A stretch of DNA of 35,053 nt, taken from Anaerolineae bacterium (GTDB lineage Bacteria; Chloroflexota; Anaerolineae; JACIWR01). A program made the translations under genes and the position numbers. The notes under the pieces were generated by a model, which saw only the letters and a list, made by a program, of their open reading frames with translations, did not search any database and was not told the DNA's origin. The stretch spans positions 1-35,053 of the forward strand of contig JACIWR010000004.1 in the NCBI GenBank assembly GCA_014360845.1, given 5' to 3'. This document shows positions 1 through 33,914 of the stretch, piece after piece. The first letter of the stretch is position 1. The number at the start of each line of letters is the position of its first letter.

Positions 1-1
1 A

Positions 2-3000
2 GAGGGTTTGCTCGAGCTCTTTAATGAAATATCTCCTATCGAGAGCTTCAACGGGGTGCTCTCGCTGCACTTCCCGGCGTACCATGACCCGGTCAGCAGA
101 CAACTGGGGTTGACTTATCGCTTTGAGGAGCCCAAGTATGGGGCGCTGGAGTGTCTGGACCGCGACATGACCTATGCCGCTCCTCTGTACGTTGAAGTGG
201 ACCTGCACAACCGGGAGACCGATGAGCACATCCGCTCGGAGATATTCCTGGGAGATTTCCCGTTGATGACGGAGAATGGCACCTTCATCATCAACGGGAC
301 AGAGCGGGTGGTGGTCAGTCAGCTCATCCGCTCTCCTGGCGTCTACTTCGACGCTGAAGAGGATCGCACCACGGGACGTCTGCTCAGCCAGGCCAAGCTG
401 ATCCCAGACCGGGGCGCCTGGATGGAGTTCGAGACCCGTAAGAGCGATTATCTCACCCTGAAGTTCAACCGCAAACGCACTATCCCGGTCACCATCCTGC
501 TGCGGGCTCTTGCCGCGGTGGATGACGGGTTGGACAGCGATGTGCTGACCGAGGGCAGCGATGAGGAGTTGCTCGCCCTTTTCGCCGAGTCCGATACTCA
601 TCCTGACCATCAGTACATTGTGGGGACAATGCGCCAGGAGCCCGAATGGGAGCTCAAAGGGGATCGCACCATAGCTGAAGAGGCCCTGCTGGAGTTCTAC
701 AAGCGCATGCGACCCGGTGATCCGCCCACCCTGGACAACGCCAGAGATTACCTGGTCTCCCAGATTTTTGACCAACACCGTTACGACCTGGGGCGGGTTG
801 GCCGTTACAAACTCAATCGTCGTCTGGGACTGGATATACCCTCTCAACACCGAACCCTGACCAAGATGGACCTGGTCAAAGTGGTGGAGAGGATGATCCG
901 GGTGAATAACGGTCTGGAGGACCCGGATGACATTGACCACCTGGGCAACCGGCGGGTGAAGACGGTGGGGGAGCTCATTCAGAACAAGCTGCGCATCGGA
1001 TTGCGGCGCATGGAGCGCGTGGTGCGCGAGAGAATGAGCATTCGCGACACTGAGGAGATAACCCCCATTTCGTTGATCAACATTCGACCGGTTGTGGCTG
1101 CCGTGCGCGAATTCTTCGGCTCCAGCCAGTTGTCCCAGTTTATGGATCAGACCAACCCCCTGACTGAGCTTACCCACAAGCGCACTCTCAGCGCGTTGGG
1201 ACCGGGTGGTCTGCGCCGCGAGCGGGCCGGTTTTGATGTGCGAGACGTGCACCACTCCCACTACGGGCGCATCTGCCCCATCGAGACCCCTGAGGGTCCC
1301 AACATCGGGTTGATCGGGCGTTTGGCCAGCTATGCGCGGGTGAATGAATACGGTTTCATCGAAACGCCTTATCGCAAGGTGATACGCACGGTGCCCAACG
1401 AGGCCGATAAGTTGGTCGGGCACATCCTTCGCGAGCAGATTGTGGACCCGGAAAGCGGTGAGGTGGTGGCCGAGGCGGGTACCGAGGTGACTCCCGAACT
1501 GGCCGAGCGAATTGCTGCCTTGCCCTCGGTGGACGAGGTCAAGGTTCGTCCCATGGTGACCAATGAGATAGTTTATCTGACGGCGGACACGGAAGACCAG
1601 TTCACCATTGCCCAGGCCAACGCCAAGCTCGACGACAAGGGTCATTTCATTGACGATCGTATTTCCGTGCGGCGCAGCCAGCGCTTCCTGTTCGAAGCGC
1701 CGGAGAAAATTGATTACATGGACGTTTCCCCCAAGCAGGTGGTGGGAATATCCGCTTCGCTGATCCCGTTCCTGGAGCATGATGACGCGAACCGCGCCCT
1801 GATGGGTTCTAACATGCAGCGTCAGGCAGTGCCACTTCTCACTCCGGAGGAGCCTATCGTGGTCACGGGCATGGAGCCCAGCGCAGCGCTGGCCTCGGGA
1901 CAGGTGGTCATCGCTCAGGAGGACGGGGAGGTGGTGAGTGTCACTGGCGAGCGCATAATTGTCGCTGGCGAGAATGGGTTGCGCACCTACAAGTTGCGCA
2001 GGTTCAATCGCTCTAACCAGTCTACCTGCATTGATCAGCACCCCATCGTCAGTAAGGGGCAAAAGGTCAAAAAAGGTGACGTGTTGGCGGATTCCTCGTC
2101 CACCGACCACGGGGTGCTGGCCCTGGGGCAGAATGTGCTGGTGGCCTTCATGTCGTGGGAGGGCAACAACTACGAGGATGCCATCATCATCAGCGAAAGC
2201 CTGGTGCGAGAGGACAAGTTCACCTCCATCCACATAGAGAAGCACGAGGTGAAGGCGCGCGAGACCAAGCTCGGTCCGGAGGAAATCACTCGCGATATTC
2301 CCAACGTCGGTGAAGAGGCGCTGAAAGACCTGGACGAAAACGGCATCGTGCGCATTGGGGCCGAGGTGGGACCCAGCGACATCCTGGTCGGCAAAATCAC
2401 GCCCAAAGGCGAGAAAGAGCTGACCCCGGAGGAGAAGTTGCTGCGGGCCATTTTCGGTGAAAAAGCTCGCGAGGTTAAGGACTCCTCCCTGCGCATGCCC
2501 CATGGTGAGCGGGGCAAGGTGGTAGATGTAAGGATCTTCGACCGCGAGGAGCACCGGGATTTGCAAACGGGGGTCAATCAACTGGTGCGGGTGAGTGTGG
2601 CCCAGCAACGCAAGATCACCGAAGGGGATAAGATGGCCGGGCGCCACGGGAACAAAGGCGTCATCTCCAAGGTGGTACCTATCGAGGATATGCCGTTCTT
2701 GCCCGATGGCACGCCGGTAGAGATCATTCTGAACCCCTTGGGTGTGCCGGGCCGCATGAACATCGGTCAGATTTTGGAGACGCACCTGGGTTGGGCTGCC
2801 GACAGGTTGGGCTTCCGGGCGGTGAGCCCCGTCTTCGATGGTGCTGATGAGCAGGAAATCGAGGCCGAATTGGCCCGGGCGTGGATGATTGATGAGGCCT
2901 GGGCGGAGATAACCTCTCGCGCCTGGGAGTGGATCAAGCAACAGGGCATGGATACCGACTACTTTGATGATGATGACGATGCGCGTCTGTATTACATTGC

Positions 3001-3820
3001 GCACTGGTTTGATGAACTCGGCTGTGACTATGACGAGGAGCAGTTGGCCTATGATCGGGTCTATGCCCGGCGTGCGGTGTTACGAGAGTGGTTGAAGGAG
3101 CTGGGATACGATCCCGATAGCATTCTGATTTTTGAAGACGATCACCGCAGCGTCGCTGAGCGAGAGGCGAGCGATGCTCTGGCCATAGACGTTTGTCTGC
3201 GGCTGTGGTTGACCAAGCACGGGGAAGAAGTATCACCGGAACTGTCGGGTGAGGAGCTGCGAACCTACGCCGAGGAGGTGAGCCGGCGGATCGGGTGGCC
3301 TGTGCCCACTACTGGCAAGATAGTGCTGTACGATGGCAAGACCGGTGAGCCTTTTGACCAGCCGGTGACAGTGGGTGTGATCCACATGATGAAGTTGGCG
3401 CACCTGGTGGAGGACAAGGTGCACGCTCGCTCTACCGGGCCGTACTCCCTGGTCACTCAGCAGCCGCTGGGTGGTAAGGCTCAGTTCGGTGGTCAGCGTT
3501 TTGGAGAGATGGAGGTTTGGGCCCTGGAGGCTTATGGCGCGGCCTATACCTTGCAGGAGATGCTGACCGTCAAATCTGATGATGTGACGGGCCGCGTGAA
3601 GACCTATGAGGCTATAGTCAAGGGTGAAGAAGTGACGGAACCTGGCTTGCCAGCCTCGTTCCGCGTGCTGGTCAAAGAGTTGCAAAGCCTGGGGTTGGCT
3701 GTGGAGGCTTTGGGCGACAATGGCGAGATCATCGAGTTTGGCAAGGATGAGGAGAAGGAGAAGCTTCCACAGCTAGGCTCTGGTCTGGGATTGCTGGGCT
3801 TCGAAGGGGATACGGAATAG
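2..3820 (+). CDS. rpoB: RNA polymerase beta subunit RpoB, 5' end outside window
   Basis: Catalytic beta subunit of RNA polymerase. The frame is open to the left edge and the first residues ([13 protein letters not shown]) match the family about 40 residues in, so the TTG at 8 is not the true start. Visible family marks include the rifampicin region ([11 protein letters not shown], 1117-1230), [11 protein letters not shown], the [12 protein letters not shown] lysine region, and the C-terminal [18 protein letters not shown] block that contacts beta'. Two oddities are seen: Thr at the position of E. coli Arg529 (codon 1184-1186) and an extra acidic segment of about 130 residues (2875-3310) between VFDGA and [11 protein letters not shown]. 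Compact like Gram-positive RpoB, without the E. coli insert near residues 225-343. It is followed by rpsL rather than rpoC. Confidence 0.98.
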
Positions 3821-3823
3821 GAT

Positions 3824-3852
3824 TTGACTTTTGGAAAATTCTATGGTAGAAT
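3824..3852 (+). promoter_or_regulatory. Sigma-70-type promoter for the rpsL operon
   Basis: TTGACT at 3824-3829 and TAGAAT at 3847-3852 are separated by exactly 17 bp, each with one mismatch to consensus. The -35 box begins only 3 nt after the rpoB stop. Transcription would begin near 3859, giving a leader of about 130 nt before rpsL. It is the best promoter match I found and makes rpsL the head of a new transcription unit, though read-through from rpoB remains possible. Confidence 0.8.
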
Positions 3853-3901
3853 CTTCCTTCGTTGCCTAGCAGGTAAGCCTTTTAGAGCGCGTTAGGTTTG
3901 C

Positions 3902-3937
3902 ATGAGGCCATCGCGGCTCTTCTCACGATGGCCTCAT
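3902..3937 (+). promoter_or_regulatory. Perfect 12-bp hairpin in the rpsL leader
   Basis: ATGAGGCCATCG (3902-3913) and CGATGGCCTCAT (3926-3937) are perfect inverted repeats around a 12-nt loop. No T-run follows, so it is not a standard intrinsic terminator. It lies between the predicted promoter and the rpsL ribosome binding site, where a protein-binding or attenuation structure would be expected. Function is inferred only from position. Confidence 0.65.
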
Positions 3938-3990
3938 TCAGTGAACAGTGGAAGTTCGAGCGATTTACTAGTTTCAGGGGAGGAAGGAAT

Positions 3991-4422
<432 letters not shown>

Positions 4423-4477
4423 CTGGATTCTTGTCGGCGGTAATCGCCGCTCAATCGGAGGATCTGAGGAGTAAGGT

Positions 4478-4948
4478 ATGCCGAGACGTTATCGTCCTCC
4501 CAAGCGGGAGGTAGAACCGGATATCAAATACAATAGCGTGGTGGTGGCCAAGTTCATTAATCGCCTGATGAAGGGTGGTAAGAAAAGTACGGCGGCGCGT
4601 ATTTTGTACGATGCCTTCGATCTCATTGAAAAGCGCATGAGCCGTAATCCGTTGGAGGTTTTTGAGCAAGCCATCAAGAATGCAACTCCAATCCTGGAAG
4701 TGAAGCCTCGGCGCGTGGGTGGTGCAACTTACCAGGTGCCGGTTGAGGTGCCGCCTCACAGGCAATTGGCCCTGGCCATGCGCTGGCTGATACAATCTGC
4801 ACGAAATCGCCCTGGCAAGTCCATGGCCGAGAAGTTAGCTGCTGAGCTAATGGATGCGGCCCAGGGGGTCGGGGCGACGATCAAGAAGCGGGAAGATACC
4901 CACAAAATGGCTGAAGCGAACAAGGCTTTCGCCCATTACCGCTGGTAA
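4478..4948 (+). CDS. rpsG: 30S ribosomal protein S7
   Basis: S7, 156 aa, the primary 16S rRNA binding protein that nucleates assembly of the 30S head and lies at the E site. It starts [15 protein letters not shown] and carries the usual [12 protein letters not shown] motif, the YQVPVEV beta-hairpin region and a C-terminal AHYRW. The length is normal for non-enteric bacteria. The ATG has a GAGGAG ribosome site eight bases upstream. A small hairpin (CGGCG/CGCCG) lies in the 55-nt gap after rpsL. In E. coli S7 represses this operon translationally; no matching site is recognisable here. Confidence 0.98.
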
Positions 4949-5049
4949 GTCCCCTCTCTTCCAGGTTATTGGGTTTGCTGGGTGGTTAGCGCAGGCTCCT
5001 TGAGACTAACTGCCGAATCACTCGATTTCCTGGCTACGGAGCCATTCAG

Positions 5050-7125
<2,076 letters not shown>

Positions 7126-7140
7126 TTACTTCGCTTCTTT

Positions 7141-7228
7141 CGCCCCCTGTGGGGCGTGAGAGATAAAAACAGGGAAAAAGGAGATTTTGAGGTGGTAGCC
7201 CGCTCCCCGCCGTGGTCTACGAGGGGAG
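7141..7228 (+). other. fusA-tuf spacer with two hairpins
   Basis: The 150-nt gap between fusA and tuf holds CGCCCC-CTGT-GGGGCG (7141-7156), a perfect 6-bp stem with a tetraloop, and CTCCCC (7203-7208) pairing with GGGGAG (7223-7228). Neither is followed by a T-run. I see no convincing promoter, although EF-Tu usually needs extra expression. The tuf ribosome site AAAGGAG lies just before the gene. Confidence 0.45.
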
Positions 7229-7275
7229 AAGGGGCCTCTCCAGAAATTCGGTAATTGAGGGAAAGGAGAATTTAA

Positions 7276-8502
7276 ATGGCTAAGCAAAAGTTTGAGCGAA
7301 CAAAGCCTCATGTGAACGTGGGAACCATCGGACACATTGACCACGGCAAGACAACCTTGACAGCCGCCATCACCAAGGTATTGGCCTTGAAGGGCTTGGC
7401 ATCGTACAAGAGCTACGATGAGGTGGCCAAAGCGGACGCCAAGACCTTCCGTCGTGATGCGACGAAAATCTTGACGGTGGCCATTTCCCACGTGGAGTAC
7501 GAGACGGAGAAACGTCACTACGCTCACGTGGACTGCCCCGGACACCGCGACTACATCAAGAACATGATCACCGGTGCAGCCCAGATGGATGGGGCTATCC
7601 TGGTGGTGGATGCCTCTGAGGGGCCTATGCCTCAGACGCGCGAGCACGTGCTGCTGGCCCGCCAGGTGGAAGTGCCGAGCATGGTCATATTCTTGAACAA
7701 ATGCGACCTGATGGAGGATGAGGACTCCGAGGAGTTGCTGGAGCTGGTGGAACTGGAGCTGCGAGAGTTGCTGGACGAGTACGAGTTCCCCGGCGATGAG
7801 GTCCCGGTGGTGCGGGGTAGCGCGCTGCGGGCTCTCCAGAGCGACAGCACCGATCCGGATGCTCCCGAGTATCAGTGTATCTGGGAGCTGATGCACGCCA
7901 TAGACGATTACATCCCGACGCCGGTGCGTGAGGAGGATAAGCCCTTCCTGATGCCTATCGAGGACGTGTTCAGCATCAAGGGGCGTGGCACGGTGGTCAC
8001 CGGGCGAATCGAGCGCGGCACCATCAAGGTGGGCGACGAGGTGGAGATCGTCGGTCTGCGTGACCAGATCAAGAAGACGGTGTGCACCGGGGTGGAGATG
8101 TTCCACAAGACCCTGGATAAGGGCATTGCCGGCGACAATGTGGGCTGCCTGCTGCGCGGCATTGATCGCGACGAGGTGGAGCGCGGTATGGTGCTGGCCA
8201 AGCCGGGTAGCATCAAGCCTCACACCAAGTTCATGAGTGAGGTCTACGTCCTGCGCAAGGATGAAGGTGGTCGGCACAAGCCCTTCTTCCCCGGCTATCG
8301 TCCTCAGTTCTACATCCGCACCATGGACGTGACGGGCGAGATCACTTTGCCCGAGGGCGTGGAAATGGTCATGCCTGGGGACAACGTGAACTTGCAGGTG
8401 GAGTTGATTGTGCCGGTGGCCCTGGAGGTAGGGTCGCGCTTCGCTATTCGTGAGGGTGGTCTGACCGTTGGCGCGGGTGTGATCACCAAGATACTGGAAT
8501 AG
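7276..8502 (+). CDS. tuf: Elongation factor Tu, with divergent switch I
   Basis: EF-Tu, 408 aa, the GTPase that carries aminoacyl-tRNA to the ribosome. Standard parts are the P-loop GHIDHGKT (19-26), DCPGH (86-90), NKCD, SAL, the domain II core [14 protein letters not shown] and the domain III core. The effector loop is not standard: where nearly all EF-Tu have PEEKARGITI, this one has [16 protein letters not shown] (53-68), about five residues longer, keeping only the Mg-binding Thr (Thr67). Near the C-terminus REGGRTVGAG is [10 protein letters not shown] (Leu396, E. coli Arg381). PGHRDY replaces PGHADY. The frame is intact through these sites. A second, ordinary tuf may exist elsewhere. Confidence 0.96.
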
Positions 8503-8516
8503 TACAACGTACCTGG

Positions 8517-8555
8517 CGGGGCAGGGTGCGTCACTTTGTGCCGTACCTTGCCCCG
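8517..8555 (+). promoter_or_regulatory. Long hairpin in the rpsJ (S10) leader
   Basis: CGGGGCAGGGTGC (8517-8529) pairs with GTACCTTGCCCCG (8543-8555) over 13 bp with two G-U wobbles, and G8530-C8542 can extend it, leaving an 11-nt loop. It lies in the 81-nt gap between tuf and rpsJ with no T-run after it. It could be a processing or attenuation structure for the S10 segment; in E. coli the S10 leader is the target of L4 control, but no specific resemblance is claimed. Confidence 0.55.
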
Positions 8556-8583
8556 AAGTGTGATGTGGGATGAGAGAGGGGCT

Positions 8584-8892
8584 ATGGCCAAGCAGAAGAT
8601 CAGGATTCGACTGAAAGCTTACGATCATCGGGTTCTAGACCAGTCAGCGCGACGCATCGTGGAGACGGCGGAGCGCACGGGAGCACAGGTGGTGGGACCG
8701 GTTCCCTTGCCCACCAAGATCGAGCGCTTTACCGTGCAGCGCTCCCCTTTCGTGGACAAGGACTCCCAGGAACATTTCGAGATTCGCACTCATAAGCGAC
8801 TCATTGATGTCATTGATCCTGGGTCCAAGACCATTGATTCGCTGATGCGTCTTAATCTGCCGGCTGGGGTGGATATCGAAATCAAAATGTAA
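8584..8892 (+). CDS. rpsJ: 30S ribosomal protein S10
   Basis: S10, 102 aa, part of the 30S head and, as NusE, partner of NusB in antitermination. It begins [19 protein letters not shown] at the ATG at 8584, preceded by GAGAGAGGG; an upstream in-frame ATG at 8536 would add 16 residues without homology and starts inside the leader hairpin. The [16 protein letters not shown] and [12 protein letters not shown] motifs are conserved and the length is typical. First gene of the S10 segment, followed by a 126-nt gap to rplC. Confidence 0.98.
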
Positions 8893-8966
8893 GCCCTGGT
8901 GAGGCCCCTGATCTGGTTTCTGCGACGGTCTCTCGCAAGAACTTGTCGGGGACTCAGAAGGAGAGG

Positions 8967-9004
8967 GAACTCGAAGGAACTCGAGGGCTCTTGGGGGAAC
9001 TCGC
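8967..9004 (+). repeat. Three phased GGAACTCG repeats before rplC
   Basis: GGAACTCG occurs at 8967-8974, 8977-8984 and 8997-9004, with starts 10 and 20 bp apart, that is, on one face of the helix. It lies in the rpsJ-rplC spacer just before the rplC ribosome site. It may be a simple local duplication; no function is assigned. Confidence 0.5.
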
Positions 9005-9018
9005 CTGTGGGAGGGAAG

Positions 9019-9651
9019 ATGAAGGGTATTTTAGGCAAGAAAGTGGGCATGACGCAGATCTTTGACGAGAGTGGAGAGGTTATCCCGGTAACGGTCATCG
9101 AGGCTGGGCCCTGCTTTGTGGTGCAGAAGCGGACGGTGGAACGGGATGGCTATAGCGCGATCCAGTTGGGTTTCGAGGAGGTGAAGCCCAAGCGTCTCAC
9201 CAAAGGTCAGCTCGGCCATCTGCGTAAGAGAAATTTACCCCCTCTGCGCTACCTGCGCGAAGTTCGTGTCTCCGATCCAGAGGAGTACGAAGAGGGACAG
9301 AAGATTACGGTTGGCATATTCGATGTGGGCGAACGGGTGGATGTGGTAGGCACTTCCAAGGGGCGCGGTTTCGCGGGTACTATCAAGCGTCACGGGTTCA
9401 AACGCCAACCCAAGACCCACGGCCAGTCCGACCGCGAGCGTGCGCCGGGTTCCATTGGTTCTACGACCACGCCGGGGCGCGTGTTCAAAGGGAAGCGCAT
9501 GGCCGGACACATGGGGAACGCACGGGTCACGGCGCAGAACTTGCAGGTGGTGCTGGTGGATCCGGAGCGCAATCTGTTGGCCGTTAAGGGGACGGTGCCG
9601 GGAGCACGCAACGGGTTGCTGATTATCAAAGAGGCGAGGAAGCAAGGGTAA
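9019..9651 (+). CDS. rplC: 50S ribosomal protein L3
   Basis: L3, 210 aa, an early-assembly protein that reaches to the peptidyl transferase centre. The start is the ATG at 9019 (MKGILGKKVGMTQIFD) behind GGGAGGGAAG; upstream in-frame codons are non-homologous. The core motif GRGFAGTIKRHGFKRQPKTH and the SIGSTTTPGRVFKGKRMAGHMG loop are intact, including the Gln position that is methylated in some bacteria. Normally rplD follows within a few bases; here a secreted protease gene intervenes. Confidence 0.98.
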   Translation: MKGILGKKVGMTQIFDESGEVIPVTVIEAGPCFVVQKRTVERDGYSAIQLGFEEVKPKRLTKGQLGHLRKRNLPPLRYLREVRVSDPEEYEEGQKITVGIFDVGERVDVVGTSKGRGFAGTIKRHGFKRQPKTHGQSDRERAPGSIGSTTTPGRVFKGKRMAGHMGNARVTAQNLQVVLVDPERNLLAVKGTVPGARNGLLIIKEARKQG

Positions 9652-9674
9652 TCCTCGCTAACTGTGAGGAGGTA

Positions 9675-9701
9675 ATGCGCACAGCACATTTTATCCCGTG
9701 A
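9675..9701 (+). CDS. Eight-codon minicistron with strong ribosome site
   Basis: GAGGAGGT at 9666-9673 precedes ATG at 9675, which opens an 8-codon reading frame (MRTAHFIP) ending in TGA at 9699-9701. The stop abuts the ATG at 9702, the upstream possible start of the protease frame. It could be a leader peptide that couples protease translation to rplC, or a relic of the original rplD start. Translation is inferred from the ribosome site alone. Confidence 0.4.
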   Translation: MRTAHFIP

Positions 9702-9731
9702 ATGTGCGTGACTCTCGAAGAAGGGTTTGAG

Positions 9732-12503
9732 ATGTGCGGGAATACCAGGCAGTTGCTCAAGGTCGGGGTGTTGACCTGCGCGGTGATGGCTTTGCTCGCG
9801 TTGGCGTGGAACAACTCATGGGCTGAGCCACAGAGCCGGTGTGAACTTTCGCCGCTGTTTCAGTCGCCGCTGCCTACGCCTACCGCTCCTGCCCTCTCTA
9901 ACGCGCAGATGGCGATACAACACGTCTCGCGCACCAGGAATATATCGGCCGATCAACTATCGGTTGCTGATGAATCAACGATCGAATTCCCATTGACCGG
10001 GAAAGTGCTCCATCGGGAGCTGGTACTGGATACGAAGGGCAAAGGCCAGTTGATTTACGAGGTGATGATCGAGGGGCAGACTGGAGCGATAGCCAAGGGA
10101 AACAAACTGGATGAATTGCTGGTAGAGGAAGCCCAGGCATATCGAGCCAGGTACGAGCGTCTGGTTCTGGAATTGGCGGCTCACGGGAAGAAAACAGCCA
10201 TCGAGAATTTGCAAGTTGTCAACGACATGGTGGTCCATTATCCTTTGACCGACCGAATGTGCTGGTGGGTGAGAGTGCTGGACAGCAAAAGCCTGCTGAC
10301 CCAGGACGTGACCATTGATCTGTACGGCAAACGAGTGGACGTGAAAGCACTGGAGAAGGCGGAGTTCGAGGCACGGCGGGCCAAGTATGGCAGGTTGGAA
10401 CCAGAGTTGTACTATCTCTTGCAAACCAGGAAAGATAAAGACCTGGTGAAAGTGCTGCTGTGGGTCAAGGGGGTGGACTACGCAGGGGTAGATGCACAGT
10501 TGGTACAGAAGTACCCGCAACTTAAGGGCTTCAGGGTAATAGGCGGGCGCGTCTGCGACGAGAGAGGCGCGCCGGCGAAACTGGACAGGGAACTATCGAG
10601 GAAAGTGTTAGCCGATTACAACGATTTGTTGGACAAGGCTCATCTGGCAGCGGCACAACCCATCATTGATCTCCTGCGGGCCAGGGGCTACGAAGCCAAA
10701 GCGCTTGAGTTTATCCCCGCTGTGGTGGCCGAATTGTCCAGGAAGGCTGTGCTCGAGCTGAACGAGGCCCCGTTGGAGAACCTGGGCGCTATCTACTGGG
10801 GTGAGATGGAAATTCACCCTCAACTGGACTCGGCTGCACCGACGGTGCGTGCTACCACTGTCTGGGGACGCGGGTACACGGGCGAAGGTGTTACTATAGC
10901 CGTCGCCGAAGGCGGTGTGATTAATCCCGGCATTACCCACGGTGCTTTGCAAGGAAAGATCATAGCCGTAAATACGGCCGAGGCCACGGATTGGCACGCG
11001 GCGGCTGTGGCTGGCGTGTTGGCTGGTGACCATCCAGACTATCCACAATATCGGGGTATTGCATACGGCAGTGATTCGCTCGTCAGCGCCAGGGTAACCG
11101 GAGGCACAATAGACTATCTGGCAGATGGTCTGGAATGGGCCGTAGATCAGGGGGCATACGCCATCAATTGCAGCTTCACCACCGAAGGTAGTCGTTACAT
11201 GCAGCCGGAGGACAGAGCTCTCGACTATGTGGCCCGCTATCGTTACCCGACGATAGTGGTGGGCGCGGGCAACGATGTGGCCCAGGTCTGGCATGTTTCC
11301 AGTCCAGCCAAGGGCTACAACATTCTCACGGTGGGCGGGTTCGATGATCATAACGACTCTTCCTGGTCAGATGATGTTATGTGGGATGATTCGTGCTATG
11401 TGGATCCCTACATTGATGGCACGAGCGGATCAGGCGACAGAGAGAAGCCCGATGTGGTTGCTGTGGGAGCAAGTGTGACAACGGCCTATACTCCTTGGGG
11501 CGATGATGGGTTTCGTGCTCTAAGCGGTACCAGCCTCGCCGCTCCCCAGGTGACCGGCCTGGTCGCTCTGATTATGGACAGAAAGCCTGATTTAGGTATC
11601 TGGCCAGAGACTATCCGGGCCATCGTCATGGCTTCGGCCATCAACAATATCGAGGGTGATAGCAAACTGAGCGATCAAGATGGTGCCGGGGGCATAGACA
11701 TCTCCCTGGCCGATACGATCACGGCCAATTGGCAATGGGCCACCAGGAACATCGTGTACCCTGATGATTACGAGGATGATTGGTTGAAGGAAACCTTTAC
11801 CTTTTCTGCGACTGCTGGAGATAGAGTGCGAGTCGTTATTTGCTGGGATTCCAATCCCTCGTCCGATTTTCAGACTGAGGGCTCTGATGGCTTAGATACC
11901 GATTTGATTTTATATGTCCTGGATCCCGAACTTGTTGGGTACTCTGCCAGTCTGCACAACAGTTTCGAGATAGCGGAGTTTACCGCAACCAAGACCGGAC
12001 AATACACAATCCGTATACTCAGGGATCCAGCTACGTCTACCGAGACCTCTAACTACCTCGGCGTAGCCTGGGCCAAGGTCGCTTATAATGCCAGCTATCC
12101 CAGCCAAAGCACCCCTGGTGCCATGCTTACCGGCAGTACGAACAACTACGTAGACGTCACCGTCAAAAACACCGGCAGTCTGTACTGGCCGAGTGGGGGT
12201 GGCAATCCTGTGCGCCTGGGTTATCACTGGTATGACCAGAACTATAACCCCGTCAGTGGGTGGGCGGATTACAGGACCTATCTGCCCTACAGCATGGGTT
12301 ACGGACAGGAGGCCGGGTTGCACGCCCGCGTTGGCGCGCCATCCGGTGTGCCCGATGGGATTTACATCCTGCAATGGGATGTGGTGCGCGAGGGGATTAC
12401 TTGGTTCGCCGACCAGGGCGTGGAGACGCTGGACGTGCCCGTGCTGGTCGCCGATGAAATTCACAGCGTTTACTTACCCGTTGTGATGAAGAACTATCAG
12501 TAA
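9732..12503 (+). CDS. Secreted subtilisin-like (S8) protease inside the S10 operon
   Basis: Predicted exported serine protease, 923 aa. Start at 9732 gives a good signal peptide (MCGNTRQLLK, hydrophobic core, cleavage near SWA-EPQ); an in-frame ATG at 9702 would add ten mostly acidic residues. Numbering from 9702: a prodomain-like region to about 380, then the S8 domain with VTIAVAEGGV (Glu403 where Asp is usual), WHAAAVAG (His432), GAGN (Asn524, oxyanion) and SGTSLAAP (Ser611). After it come a beta-rich PPC-like region (about 680-800), an Ig-like NTGSLYWPSGGGNPVRLGY segment and the tail YLPVVMKNYQ. Only 12 nt separate it from rplD, so it is probably co-transcribed with ribosomal genes. One hand-counted line is less GC-rich (27/60 at 11761-11820 against 40/60 at 13681-13740 in rplB), hinting at separate origin. 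It may be active with Glu or inactive. Confidence 0.9.
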   Translation: MCGNTRQLLKVGVLTCAVMALLALAWNNSWAEPQSRCELSPLFQSPLPTPTAPALSNAQMAIQHVSRTRNISADQLSVADESTIEFPLTGKVLHRELVLDTKGKGQLIYEVMIEGQTGAIAKGNKLDELLVEEAQAYRARYERLVLELAAHGKKTAIENLQVVNDMVVHYPLTDRMCWWVRVLDSKSLLTQDVTIDLYGKRVDVKALEKAEFEARRAKYGRLEPELYYLLQTRKDKDLVKVLLWVKGVDYAGVDAQLVQKYPQLKGFRVIGGRVCDERGAPAKLDRELSRKVLADYNDLLDKAHLAAAQPIIDLLRARGYEAKALEFIPAVVAELSRKAVLELNEAPLENLGAIYWGEMEIHPQLDSAAPTVRATTVWGRGYTGEGVTIAVAEGGVINPGITHGALQGKIIAVNTAEATDWHAAAVAGVLAGDHPDYPQYRGIAYGSDSLVSARVTGGTIDYLADGLEWAVDQGAYAINCSFTTEGSRYMQPEDRALDYVARYRYPTIVVGAGNDVAQVWHVSSPAKGYNILTVGGFDDHNDSSWSDDVMWDDSCYVDPYIDGTSGSGDREKPDVVAVGASVTTAYTPWGDDGFRALSGTSLAAPQVTGLVALIMDRKPDLGIWPETIRAIVMASAINNIEGDSKLSDQDGAGGIDISLADTITANWQWATRNIVYPDDYEDDWLKETFTFSATAGDRVRVVICWDSNPSSDFQTEGSDGLDTDLILYVLDPELVGYSASLHNSFEIAEFTATKTGQYTIRILRDPATSTETSNYLGVAWAKVAYNASYPSQSTPGAMLTGSTNNYVDVTVKNTGSLYWPSGGGNPVRLGYHWYDQNYNPVSGWADYRTYLPYSMGYGQEAGLHARVGAPSGVPDGIYILQWDVVREGITWFADQGVETLDVPVLVADEIHSVYLPVVMKNYQ

Positions 12504-12515
12504 CCAGAGGTGATA

Positions 12516-13139
12516 ATGTTGCGAGTGACAGTTTACAACGCAGATGGTGAAGCAGTTGGCGAAGCCGAACTGCGCGAGGATATCTTCGGCATCGAGCCCA
12601 ACGTGGCAGTGATGCACCAGGCGCTGGTGCGGCAGTTGGCCAATGCCCGGCTGGGCACGCACAAGACCAAGTCGCGGGGCGAGGTGAGCGGCACCACGCG
12701 CAAGGTGTGGCGACAGAAGGGCACCGGTCGCGCGCGCCACAGCTCACGCAAGGTGAACTTGTGGCGAGGCGGTGGTGTCGCGCACGGACCGCGACCGCGC
12801 AGTTACCGGCAGAAGATGCCGCGCAAGATGCGGCGCCTGGCCCTGCGCTCCGCTCTCTCGGTGAAGGCCGCCGACGGGCAGATCGTCTGCCTGGACGAGT
12901 TGGAGTTGGGCGTGCCCAAAACACGAGAGATGATCAAGGTCTTGGAGAGGCTGGGCCTGGATGCCAGTGTGCTCATCCTGCTGCCGGAGCGCAACGAGAA
13001 CGTGGAGAAATCGGTGCGCAATATCCCAGACGTTTCCACTCTGCGGGCCAGCTATCTGAACGTCCGTGATCTCTTGAACTACGACTACCTCCTGATGCCC
13101 TTGGGGGCTTTGCGGGAGATTGAGCGCATTCTGGGATGA
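12516..13139 (+). CDS. rplD: 50S ribosomal protein L4
   Basis: L4, 207 aa, which lines the peptide exit tunnel with an extended loop and in E. coli also represses the S10 operon. ATG at 12516 is chosen because AGAGGTGAT lies just upstream; a GTG at 12510 in the same frame overlaps that site. The tunnel-loop motif RKVWRQKGTGRARHSSRK and GGGVAHGPRPR are conserved, and the C-terminal half is normal. It begins 12 nt after the protease stop and ends 16 nt before rplW, so translation of all three is likely linked. Confidence 0.97.
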   Translation: MLRVTVYNADGEAVGEAELREDIFGIEPNVAVMHQALVRQLANARLGTHKTKSRGEVSGTTRKVWRQKGTGRARHSSRKVNLWRGGGVAHGPRPRSYRQKMPRKMRRLALRSALSVKAADGQIVCLDELELGVPKTREMIKVLERLGLDASVLILLPERNENVEKSVRNIPDVSTLRASYLNVRDLLNYDYLLMPLGALREIERILG

Positions 13140-31106: not shown

Positions 31107-33914
31107 TTATCTACGGGCGCGCCAGGAGGCCAGCCTTGCACTGAGCTTAGCCGAAGTGCTGGCCAGCAGGCGCTGCAAGTTCAGCTTCGGCGGGGCCGGC
31201 AGCTCCGATGCGGCCACGGGCGAGAGCTGTGCCAGGTCCTCGGCGATGGCCTGCATCACCTCAGGGGTGAACACGTCCGGCGCGAAGCTCGCCACCTGCT
31301 CCAGGGTAAACCCCAGGGCCATGCTCAACTGCGGCGCGTCCAGAAGGCCAGGAAGATGCTTGTTCAGAATGGCCCGCGCTTCCTCGTTGGCCAGCAGCAA
31401 CTGCAGGGTACTGTCCAGCCCCAGGCGGACGCCTCCCTTTTCGGGACCGCCGAAGCGACTGGTGGTCTTGAGGGTGAAGCGGGCCGAGGCGTGAATATCC
31501 CGTGACGAACTGCCGACCAGGACCTCGAATTCTCCAGCTTCGGCTACCCATTGTTGTGCCAGGTCGTCGTAATAGGCCAGGGATTCGCGGTTGAGCGTCA
31601 GGGTGACGGTCTTGGTCTCGCCCGGTTCCAGGAACACTTTGGCGAAGCCCTTCAATTCCTTTTCCGGGCGCATCAGTGAGGCTGCCACGTCGCGGACGTA
31701 AAGTTGCACCACCTCCTGCCCCGCCCGTGTCCCGGTGTTCTCCACCTCCACGGAGACCTGTAACTCCTCATCCGCGTCTATCTCGGAGGCGCTGAGACGC
31801 AGGTTGTGATAAGCAAAGGTGGTGTACGACAGGCCATAGCCGAAGGGGAACAGGGGCTCGATCTTCTTTTTGTCATAGTAGCGATAGCCGACGAAGATGC
31901 CCTCGCCGTAGTAGACCTTGCCGTTTTCGCCGGGATAGTTGATGTAGGCGGGATTGTCCTCCAGCCGTTTGGGGAAGGTCAGGGGCAGCCGGCCGGAGGG
32001 GTTCACGTCGCCGAAGAGGACATCAGCGATGGCATTGCCGCATTCCTGGCCGGGATACCAGGCCTGCACTACGGCGGCCACCTTGTCCAGCCAGTTCATG
32101 GTGATTGGCGAACCGGTGTTCAGCACCACGATGGTGTTCTTGTTGGCCGCCGCTACTTTTTCGATCAGTGCCACCTGATCTCCGACCAACTCCATGTCTG
32201 GCCGGTCGAAGCCCTCGCTCTCCCACTCGTCGCTCAGGCCGACGAAGACCAGGGCCACGTCCGAGGCGGCGGCCAGCGCTGCGGCGCGGTCTATGGCGTC
32301 CTCCGGCATAGGGGGTAGACAGCCCAGGCGAAGGCTGGCCAGCGGGGTGGTGCTTGGCTTGCTGTATTCCGCTCTCAGCTCGCAGGACTGCCCGGCGGCC
32401 ATGTCCAGGGTGAAGGTCAGTTCGGCGGGGCCGCTATCGGTGGAGCTGCTCCAGCGGTCAATGACTTGCCGGCCGTCAATGAAGAGTCGGCTCGGACCGG
32501 CGCTGCTCAAACCGAAGGTGTAGCGGCCCGTTTCCGGCGCGGTGAAGCGGCCCGTCAGCCGGGCGGAGAACTGGGCGGGATTGACCTCGGGGTCAAACTC
32601 GCCGAACCAGGTCTGCTCACTGGTTTCTACCACCGTAGTCTTGACGGGCGGGCCGGAACAATCGGGGCTGTTGAAGTATTCGAGGGTGAGACCCCTCTCC
32701 GCCTGAGCACCGGACGGGGTCAGCCAGGCCGGGTTGATGGGGGGCAGCAGTTTGTGATTGGTGCATCCCATTTCATAGCCTATCTCCACGGCGTCGCCTA
32801 CCTTGCTGAGGATGCCCTCGAAGGGAGTGATGGCGTAGTGAGGGTTCACCTGGGAGCTGCCCCCGCCCATGATGCGCGCCACCTTGGCGTTGGGGCCGAT
32901 AATGGCCAGGGACTTGATCCTCTCGATGTTCAGGGGCAGGATGCTGTCCTCGTTCTTGAGCAGCACCATCCCTTCTGCCGCGGCCTGGCGGGCCAGAGCG
33001 CGATGCTCCGGCTTGTCCACGGCCTGTTCTGGGCGGTCCTCTGGGTTCTCAAAAGCACCAGACTTGGCGATGATGCGCAACAGGCGGCGCACACTCCGGT
33101 CAATGGTCGCCTCGTCCACTTCCCCGGCGCGGAAAGCTTGTAGCAACTTCTCGCCGCGCCACACGGGTGGCCCTGGCATCTCCAGGTCGAGGCCAGCCTT
33201 CACCGCGGCGGCGGTGCTCTTGGTGCCGAACCAGTCGGACATGACTAGGCCCTCGAATCCCCACTCATTCCTCAAGATGTCGGTCAGGAGAGAGGGGTTC
33301 TCGCTGGCGTAGGTGCCGTTGACCTTGTTGTAAGAAGCCATCACCGCCCAGGCGTAGGCTTCTTGTACGGCGGCCTTGAAAGGCGGCAGGTATATCTCTC
33401 GCAGGGCGCGCTCCCGGACCTCGGAGCTGATGGTGGTGCGTTGGAACTCGGAATCGTTGCAGACGTAGTGTTTGACCGCGGTGCCCACGTTCTGACTTTG
33501 CACTCCCTTGATGTAGGCCACGGCCAGGCGAGCCGAGAGGTAGGGGTCTTCCGAAAAGCACTCGAAGTTGCGGCCGGCCAGGGGCGAGCGGTGGATGTTG
33601 ACCGTGGGGGCCAGGAGGATGTGTGCTCCTTTGGTCTTGGCCTCCTCGCCCAATGCCTGCCCGACCCGCTGCACCAGGTCGGTGTTCCAGGTGGCGGCCA
33701 GGGCCACGCTCACCGGGAAGCAGGCCGCCGTGGGTCCTCCAGCAGCGAAGCTGCTCCGTCCGCCCCGTGCCCCGTAGGGGCCATCGGTCACTTTGATGGC
33801 CGGAATGCCCAGCCGGGGAACGGGAGTGGTGTACCACATCGCCGATCCGGCCAGCATGGACACCTTTTCCTCGATGGTCATTTGACTGAGTAGTTCTTCG
33901 ATTTTGTCTTCCAT
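31107..33914 (-). CDS. Family GH3 beta-glucosidase with PA14 insert
   Basis: Predicted exo-acting beta-glycosidase, 935 aa, cytoplasmic since no signal peptide is visible. The TIM-barrel domain (1-310) has KVTDGPYGARGG, VKHYVCND and the nucleophile Asp227 in GLVMSDWFGT. The second alpha/beta domain is split by a PA14-like carbohydrate-binding module (about 406-530: LEYFNSPDCSG, GRFTAPETGRYTFGL, RLFIDGRQVIDRW) and then has the acid/base segment SDEWESEGFDRPD (561-573). A fibronectin III-like domain (about 705-800) follows, then an unusual helical C-terminal extension (819-935). ATG at 33914 has GGAGGGAGA upstream. Substrate is probably a beta-linked oligosaccharide, not further resolvable. Confidence 0.93.
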   Translation of the reverse strand: MEDKIEELLSQMTIEEKVSMLAGSAMWYTTPVPRLGIPAIKVTDGPYGARGGRSSFAAGGPTAACFPVSVALAATWNTDLVQRVGQALGEEAKTKGAHILLAPTVNIHRSPLAGRNFECFSEDPYLSARLAVAYIKGVQSQNVGTAVKHYVCNDSEFQRTTISSEVRERALREIYLPPFKAAVQEAYAWAVMASYNKVNGTYASENPSLLTDILRNEWGFEGLVMSDWFGTKSTAAAVKAGLDLEMPGPPVWRGEKLLQAFRAGEVDEATIDRSVRRLLRIIAKSGAFENPEDRPEQAVDKPEHRALARQAAAEGMVLLKNEDSILPLNIERIKSLAIIGPNAKVARIMGGGSSQVNPHYAITPFEGILSKVGDAVEIGYEMGCTNHKLLPPINPAWLTPSGAQAERGLTLEYFNSPDCSGPPVKTTVVETSEQTWFGEFDPEVNPAQFSARLTGRFTAPETGRYTFGLSSAGPSRLFIDGRQVIDRWSSSTDSGPAELTFTLDMAAGQSCELRAEYSKPSTTPLASLRLGCLPPMPEDAIDRAAALAAASDVALVFVGLSDEWESEGFDRPDMELVGDQVALIEKVAAANKNTIVVLNTGSPITMNWLDKVAAVVQAWYPGQECGNAIADVLFGDVNPSGRLPLTFPKRLEDNPAYINYPGENGKVYYGEGIFVGYRYYDKKKIEPLFPFGYGLSYTTFAYHNLRLSASEIDADEELQVSVEVENTGTRAGQEVVQLYVRDVAASLMRPEKELKGFAKVFLEPGETKTVTLTLNRESLAYYDDLAQQWVAEAGEFEVLVGSSSRDIHASARFTLKTTSRFGGPEKGGVRLGLDSTLQLLLANEEARAILNKHLPGLLDAPQLSMALGFTLEQVASFAPDVFTPEVMQAIAEDLAQLSPVAASELPAPPKLNLQRLLASTSAKLSARLASWRARR

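Follow-up and report, generated by a model that had tools for sequence, protein, structure and literature searches.

A rare insertion of a gene for a predicted exported Glu-type subtilase between rplC and rplD in an Anaerolineae genome

Introduction

Few gene orders in bacteria are as conserved as rplC-rplD. An unrelated and intact 2.8-kb gene at this place, deleted again in a sister species, would therefore be a clean natural example of how a core operon gains and loses a gene. Insertions in ribosomal operons were also sought in the open literature, where a limited search returned nothing on point. The gene described here encodes a homologue of the subtilases (family S8), whose canonical members carry an Asp-His-Ser triad. 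Among solved structures its best relative is Tk-SP (PDB 3AFG) from Thermococcus kodakarensis; this S8 subtilase has both a pro-domain and a C-terminal beta domain. A Glu in the active site is known from the sedolisins (MEROPS S53), which share the subtilisin-like fold; there the Glu stands at the His position, and the oxyanion hole contains an Asp. Glu-His-Ser triads also occur in other hydrolases, acetylcholinesterase being an example. A similarly limited literature search for a subtilase clade with Glu at the catalytic Asp position found no description.

In this study we analyzed a stretch of 35,053 nucleotides (the window), which is one contig of a 4.36 Mb Chloroflexota draft genome in 578 contigs. 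We show that a protease gene in this window is a real and rare insertion in a core ribosomal operon.

Results

Gene layout and rarity of the arrangement

Genes in the region follow the order rpoB, rpsL, rpsG, fusA, tuf, rpsJ, rplC, protease ORF, rplD and then rplB onward, and on either side of the protease the order is that of the S10 operon of relatives, rpsJ-rplC-rplD-rplW-rplB and onward. The protease ORF is intact, lies on the same strand as rplC and rplD, and is adjoined by these two genes only. A preliminary description of this DNA had reported a 923-aa exported protease between rplC and rplD, 12 nt ahead of the latter; ORF and translation bear out its coordinates, length and gap. An alternative in-frame ATG at 9702 would extend the protein from 923 aa (ATG 9732) to 933 aa. 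The features are as follows:

9019..9651, + strand: rplC (ribosomal protein L3), upstream neighbour; ORF, 90% identical to the rplC of the sister genome of the same genus
9652..9731, + strand: spacer between rplC and protease, 80 nt; strong RNA hairpins are predicted to cover the two possible starts (9702, 9732)
9732..12503, + strand: predicted exported Glu-type subtilase, 923 aa; ORF, best solved relative Tk-SP 3AFG
9732..9824, + strand: signal-peptide-like N-terminus (MCGNTRQLLKVGVLTCAVMALLALAWNNSWA); hydrophobic stretch read off the sequence, helix 5-27 in the structure model
10884..11690, + strand: Peptidase S8 catalytic domain (PF00082, 107 bits in the DNA search, 104 bits in the protein search)
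10908..10910, + strand: Glu codon at the catalytic Asp position (VAEGG), Glu 393 counted from ATG 9732; from an alignment of nine Glu-type and seven Asp-type subtilases
10995..10997, + strand: catalytic His codon, His 422; same alignment
11271..11273, + strand: oxyanion Asn codon, Asn 514; same alignment
11532..11534, + strand: catalytic Ser codon, Ser 601; same alignment
11793..12017, + strand: PPC (pre-peptidase C-terminal) domain (PF04151, 30.8 bits)
12081..12452, + strand: C-terminal domain without a Pfam name; matches to query residues 794-917
12471..12503, + strand: C-terminal tail VYLPVVMKNYQ and stop; its last 22 nt survive in the sister genome
12504..12515, + strand: 12-nt gap with the rplD ribosome-binding site (AGAGGTGAT), read off the sequence; same site in the sister genome
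12516..13139, + strand: rplD (ribosomal protein L4), downstream neighbour, ATG 12516; 89% identical to the rplD of the sister genome of the same genus

On the 3' side of the ribosomal genes, the window also encodes a protein of 935 aa (31107-33914, minus strand) that belongs to glycoside hydrolase family 3 and contains a PA14 insert.

We located rplC and rplD by tblastn in 160 genomes of the class. Both were present in 150 of them, always on the same contig and strand. Between the tblastn ends the window has a spacer of 2873 nt, while across the 150 genomes the next largest spacer is 293 nt and the median is 41 nt. The near-universal adjacency of the two genes that had been claimed is thus upheld by all 149 other class genomes (spacer ≤293 nt). 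The spacer also measures ≤112 nt in 110 further loci, which are partly redundant and come from several phyla including Actinomycetota and Bacillota. Related genomes were the place where the preliminary description had proposed to look for the same arrangement. Among the genomes and loci compared it is intact only in the window; none of the 149 other genomes of the class has a protease between rplC and rplD, and a sister genome contains a remnant only. When the contigs of GTDB r220 were searched with the protease, no relative was found. As a side observation, a low-coverage contig labelled Chromatiales (JAPSGG01) has an rplD 56% identical to that of the window, in the range of many Chloroflexota, and is possibly mis-binned.

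Composition and borders

A lower GC content than that of the neighbours had been taken as a sign of insertion. The whole-gene GC of the protease is 55.6% (GC3 64%), which is indeed below rplC (58.8%) and rplD (62.7%) but above rpsG (54.4%) and rpsJ (54.0%), and so within the range of its neighbours (54-63%). As a sign of insertion the value does not hold, since it falls within this range and the insertion appears to predate a species split. In codon usage the protease is no more distant from the ribosomal set than other non-ribosomal genes of the same genome are. A foreign origin deduced from GC and codon usage was rejected, the differences being too small. We found neither border-spanning direct repeats nor inverted repeats at the protease. 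Insertion by a mobile element was rejected on this ground, and also because rplC and rplD, and no transposase or integrase, adjoin the gene.

A remnant of the gene in the sister genome

The sister genome belongs to the same genus and was the sole other genome of the order compared, so that two genomes of the order are considered in all. Its rplC and rplD are 90% and 89% identical to those of the window, and the protease is absent between them. In blastn the window aligns with the sister from position 1 to 9650 and again from 12482 on, that is, 22 nt inside the protease ORF. Within the sister genome, the insert region has a single strong DNA match, 12482-12530 (94%, E=4.8e-13), besides a weak 87-nt match on another contig. 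The last 22 coding nucleotides of the protease (12482-12503) are kept in the sister at 21 of 22 positions, the single difference being a silent AAC/AAT. This remnant encodes VMKNYQ and a stop, followed by the rplD ribosome site. We found no match to it within 3 mismatches elsewhere in 1.48 Mb of loci. For the 5' end of the protease, the best match in the sister spacer was not above shuffled sequences (25 of 500 as good).

Might the metagenomic assembly have placed the protease in the ribosomal operon by mistake? The draft is split into 578 contigs and the arrangement is present in one assembly only, which would fit such a chimera. However, the sister was assembled independently, and there too the rplD ribosome site is joined at this position to the end of such a gene; moreover, the ORF is intact with a codon usage that fits the genome. 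Because the sister genome has a remnant there, the protease-rplD junction does not appear to be an assembly error, and the risk of a chimera at the 3' junction seems largely removed. This independent support is limited to the protease-rplD junction; the rplC-protease junction is without it. Altogether we consider a chimera very improbable.

The tail of the protease, VYLPVVMKNYQ, resembles that of a Glu-type protease which the sister encodes elsewhere (VYLPAVMRNYP, L147 3511-3543). Three further ORFs of the two genomes end in YLPIVLKNH, YLPLVLKNY and YLPLVLKNY. Since the tail matches the endings of other ORFs in both genomes, the remnant is most simply read as the end of a protein gene. By the same reasoning, loss of the gene in the sister is most likely, and the insertion most likely dates from before the species split. 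This history is derived from one genome comparison, for which insertion followed by deletion would be the simplest account. A reversed order of events is conceivable as well: the 22 nt could be ancestral spacer, and the protease could have been inserted upstream of it in the lineage of the window alone, borrowing its last codons. One event would then suffice with no deletion, and a single sister genome was compared. Yet the stretch encodes VMKNYQ-stop, much like the VMRNYP-stop of the homologous protease and the YLPxVxKN tails in both genomes, and random spacer would rarely yield such an ending in frame with a stop. The reversed order therefore appears quite unlikely to us, and we prefer loss of the gene in the sister.

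A YLPxVxKN(Y/H) tail ends several otherwise different ORFs in the genus and in a few genomes of the class (loci include L167, L168 and L169), and it may serve in sorting or anchoring. Under the strict pattern YLPxVxKNY-stop there were 5 exact matches in the 160 genomes (0 in a reversed control), too sparse for a class-wide sorting signal, which was rejected in this form. The domain of about 125 aa at 12081-12452 recurs with about 40-50% identity, often in tandem; many large ORFs across the class contain it.

Expression and a spacer with predicted structure

In a consensus scan, promoter-like and terminator-like sites were not above shuffled sequences, and none lay at either junction on the + strand. 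This agrees with the earlier statement that the gene has neither promoter nor terminator. The gene shows neither a promoter nor a terminator, and the rplD ribosome site directly follows its stop, so that the protease is likely co-transcribed with the ribosomal genes. It shares the strand of the S10 operon with no internal promoter or terminator seen; its position is not conserved in relatives.

The spacer between rplC and the protease appears to be structured. The predicted RNA fold of 9645-9745 has a z of -3.57 (0 of 200 shuffles as good, single sequence), ranging from -2.6 to -3.9 with the borders, which we chose ourselves, and 8 of 400 tiled windows in the region (~2%) reach a z of -3.5. 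The ATGs at 9702 and 9732, either of which could be the start, both fall in predicted stems. Such a structure may damp translation and so speak against an output at the level of ribosomal proteins. None of the Rfam families was found in the window. A short ORF (9675-9701, MRTAHFIP) ends directly before ATG 9702 within this hairpin-rich spacer; we do not claim it as a real gene, as a ribosome site lies too near its start.

The preliminary description had suggested that expression at the pace of the ribosomal proteins could couple extracellular proteolysis with growth rate, and the gene may have been kept for this reason; its position is the sole support for such a coupling. The shared strand, the short gaps and the lack of a terminator or promoter above chance would fit selection for coupling, as would the fact that the ORF has apparently not decayed in the time since the two species parted. 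On the other hand, the sister lost the gene at rplC-rplD, no other genome has the arrangement, and the structured spacer may keep translation low. As the sister does without the gene at this site, the coupling is not required across the genus, and the insertion appears dispensable. Selected coupling thus seems doubtful, and we favour an ordinary secreted protease whose place in a growth-expressed operon is incidental and which would not be part of the ribosome system.

A Glu-type active site

PF00082 matches the protease with E=1.2e-29 and 104 bits against a cut-off of 21.8, which establishes S8 homology. The AlphaFold2 model reaches a moderate confidence (pLDDT 61.8). It matches 3AFG, KP-43 and subtilisins with a probability of 1.00, as expected for a subtilisin fold, and places Glu393 in a strand (388-394), His422 at the start of a helix (422-431) and Ser601 in a helix (600-617), which is the order of subtilisin.

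The catalytic Asp is replaced by Glu, a point unmentioned in the first reading of this DNA. With Glu at the Asp position and His and Ser present, the protein departs from the Asp-His-Ser triad, and we class it by homology with a Glu-type branch within S8 and not among the canonical Asp-His-Ser subtilases. A profile built from three relatives was run over 400 Chloroflexota genomes and yielded further Glu-type members in four other genomes. The clade thus occurs in few genomes, about 5 of the 400 sampled and two others (the loci are the window, L147, L149, L151-L154, L162 and L163), and as far as seen none is ribosome-linked elsewhere. In the alignment Glu occurs in 9 of 9 members, all with His, Asn and Ser retained, whereas all 7 Asp-type comparators have Asp. 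A tree that also included thirteen Asp-type subtilases from the phylum, and that has several long branches and an arbitrary root, puts the nine Glu-type sequences on one side of a 99/97 branch. An additional, frame-broken relative reads IVEPG at the catalytic Asp position. The sister's own Glu-type subtilase (L147 1357-3543) lies at another locus, is 39% identical and has a frame-broken N-terminal part, through assembly error or decay.

Our preferred reading is a Glu-His-Ser protease, and its main rival is a pseudoprotease, a subtilase homologue without activity that could, for instance, serve as a binding protein. The catalytic Asp is replaced in 9 of 9 members and the HGT motif after the His is changed in most, both of which might indicate lost activity. 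However, the replacement is always the acid Glu, the remaining catalytic residues are kept throughout, and triads of the acetylcholinesterase kind show that Glu-His-Ser can be catalytic. We regard an inactive product as rather unlikely, though as the most serious competitor of an active Glu-His-Ser protease.

Discussion

The reported arrangement is confirmed, and its earlier interpretation is borne out in part. Taken together, the observations are probably best explained as follows. An exported subtilase gene would have entered rplC-rplD in the ancestor of an Anaerolineae genus; the window's species kept it, and the sister species deleted it and left its last codons behind. Translation would be damped by the structured spacer, so that the output need not match that of the ribosomal proteins. 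The product would be exported, lose its pro-region and cleave extracellular protein, with catalysis by Glu-His-Ser and the oxyanion Asn in place of Asp-His-Ser. A still stronger interpretation, which we put forward as a long shot, is that certain exported subtilases of Chloroflexota form a clade whose natural triad is Glu-His-Ser, and that in one lineage such a gene has become part of the core ribosomal-protein operon, with an extracellular enzyme expressed along with ribosome synthesis. If confirmed, the clade would put the strictness of the subtilisin triad to the test.

How does the protease compare with known systems? The match to Tk-SP (profile E=8.5e-27, fold E=2.1e-24) covers the pro-region, the catalytic domain and the C-terminal beta domain, at about 20% identity, but Tk-SP has Asp (IIDTG) where the window protease has Glu (AVAEGG). 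Asp-His-Ser subtilases of Chloroflexota (e.g. L001, L155-L161) share PF00082, the oxyanion Asn and the GTS nucleophile motif with it; they differ by their Asp, an intact HGTH and their place on the other side of the 99/97 branch, and none lies between rplC and rplD. Identity as a sedolisin was rejected, since His and the oxyanion Asn are present and searches match S8 with no S53 family match. Unlike the sedolisins, the window protease has its Glu at the Asp position and retains both His and Asn.
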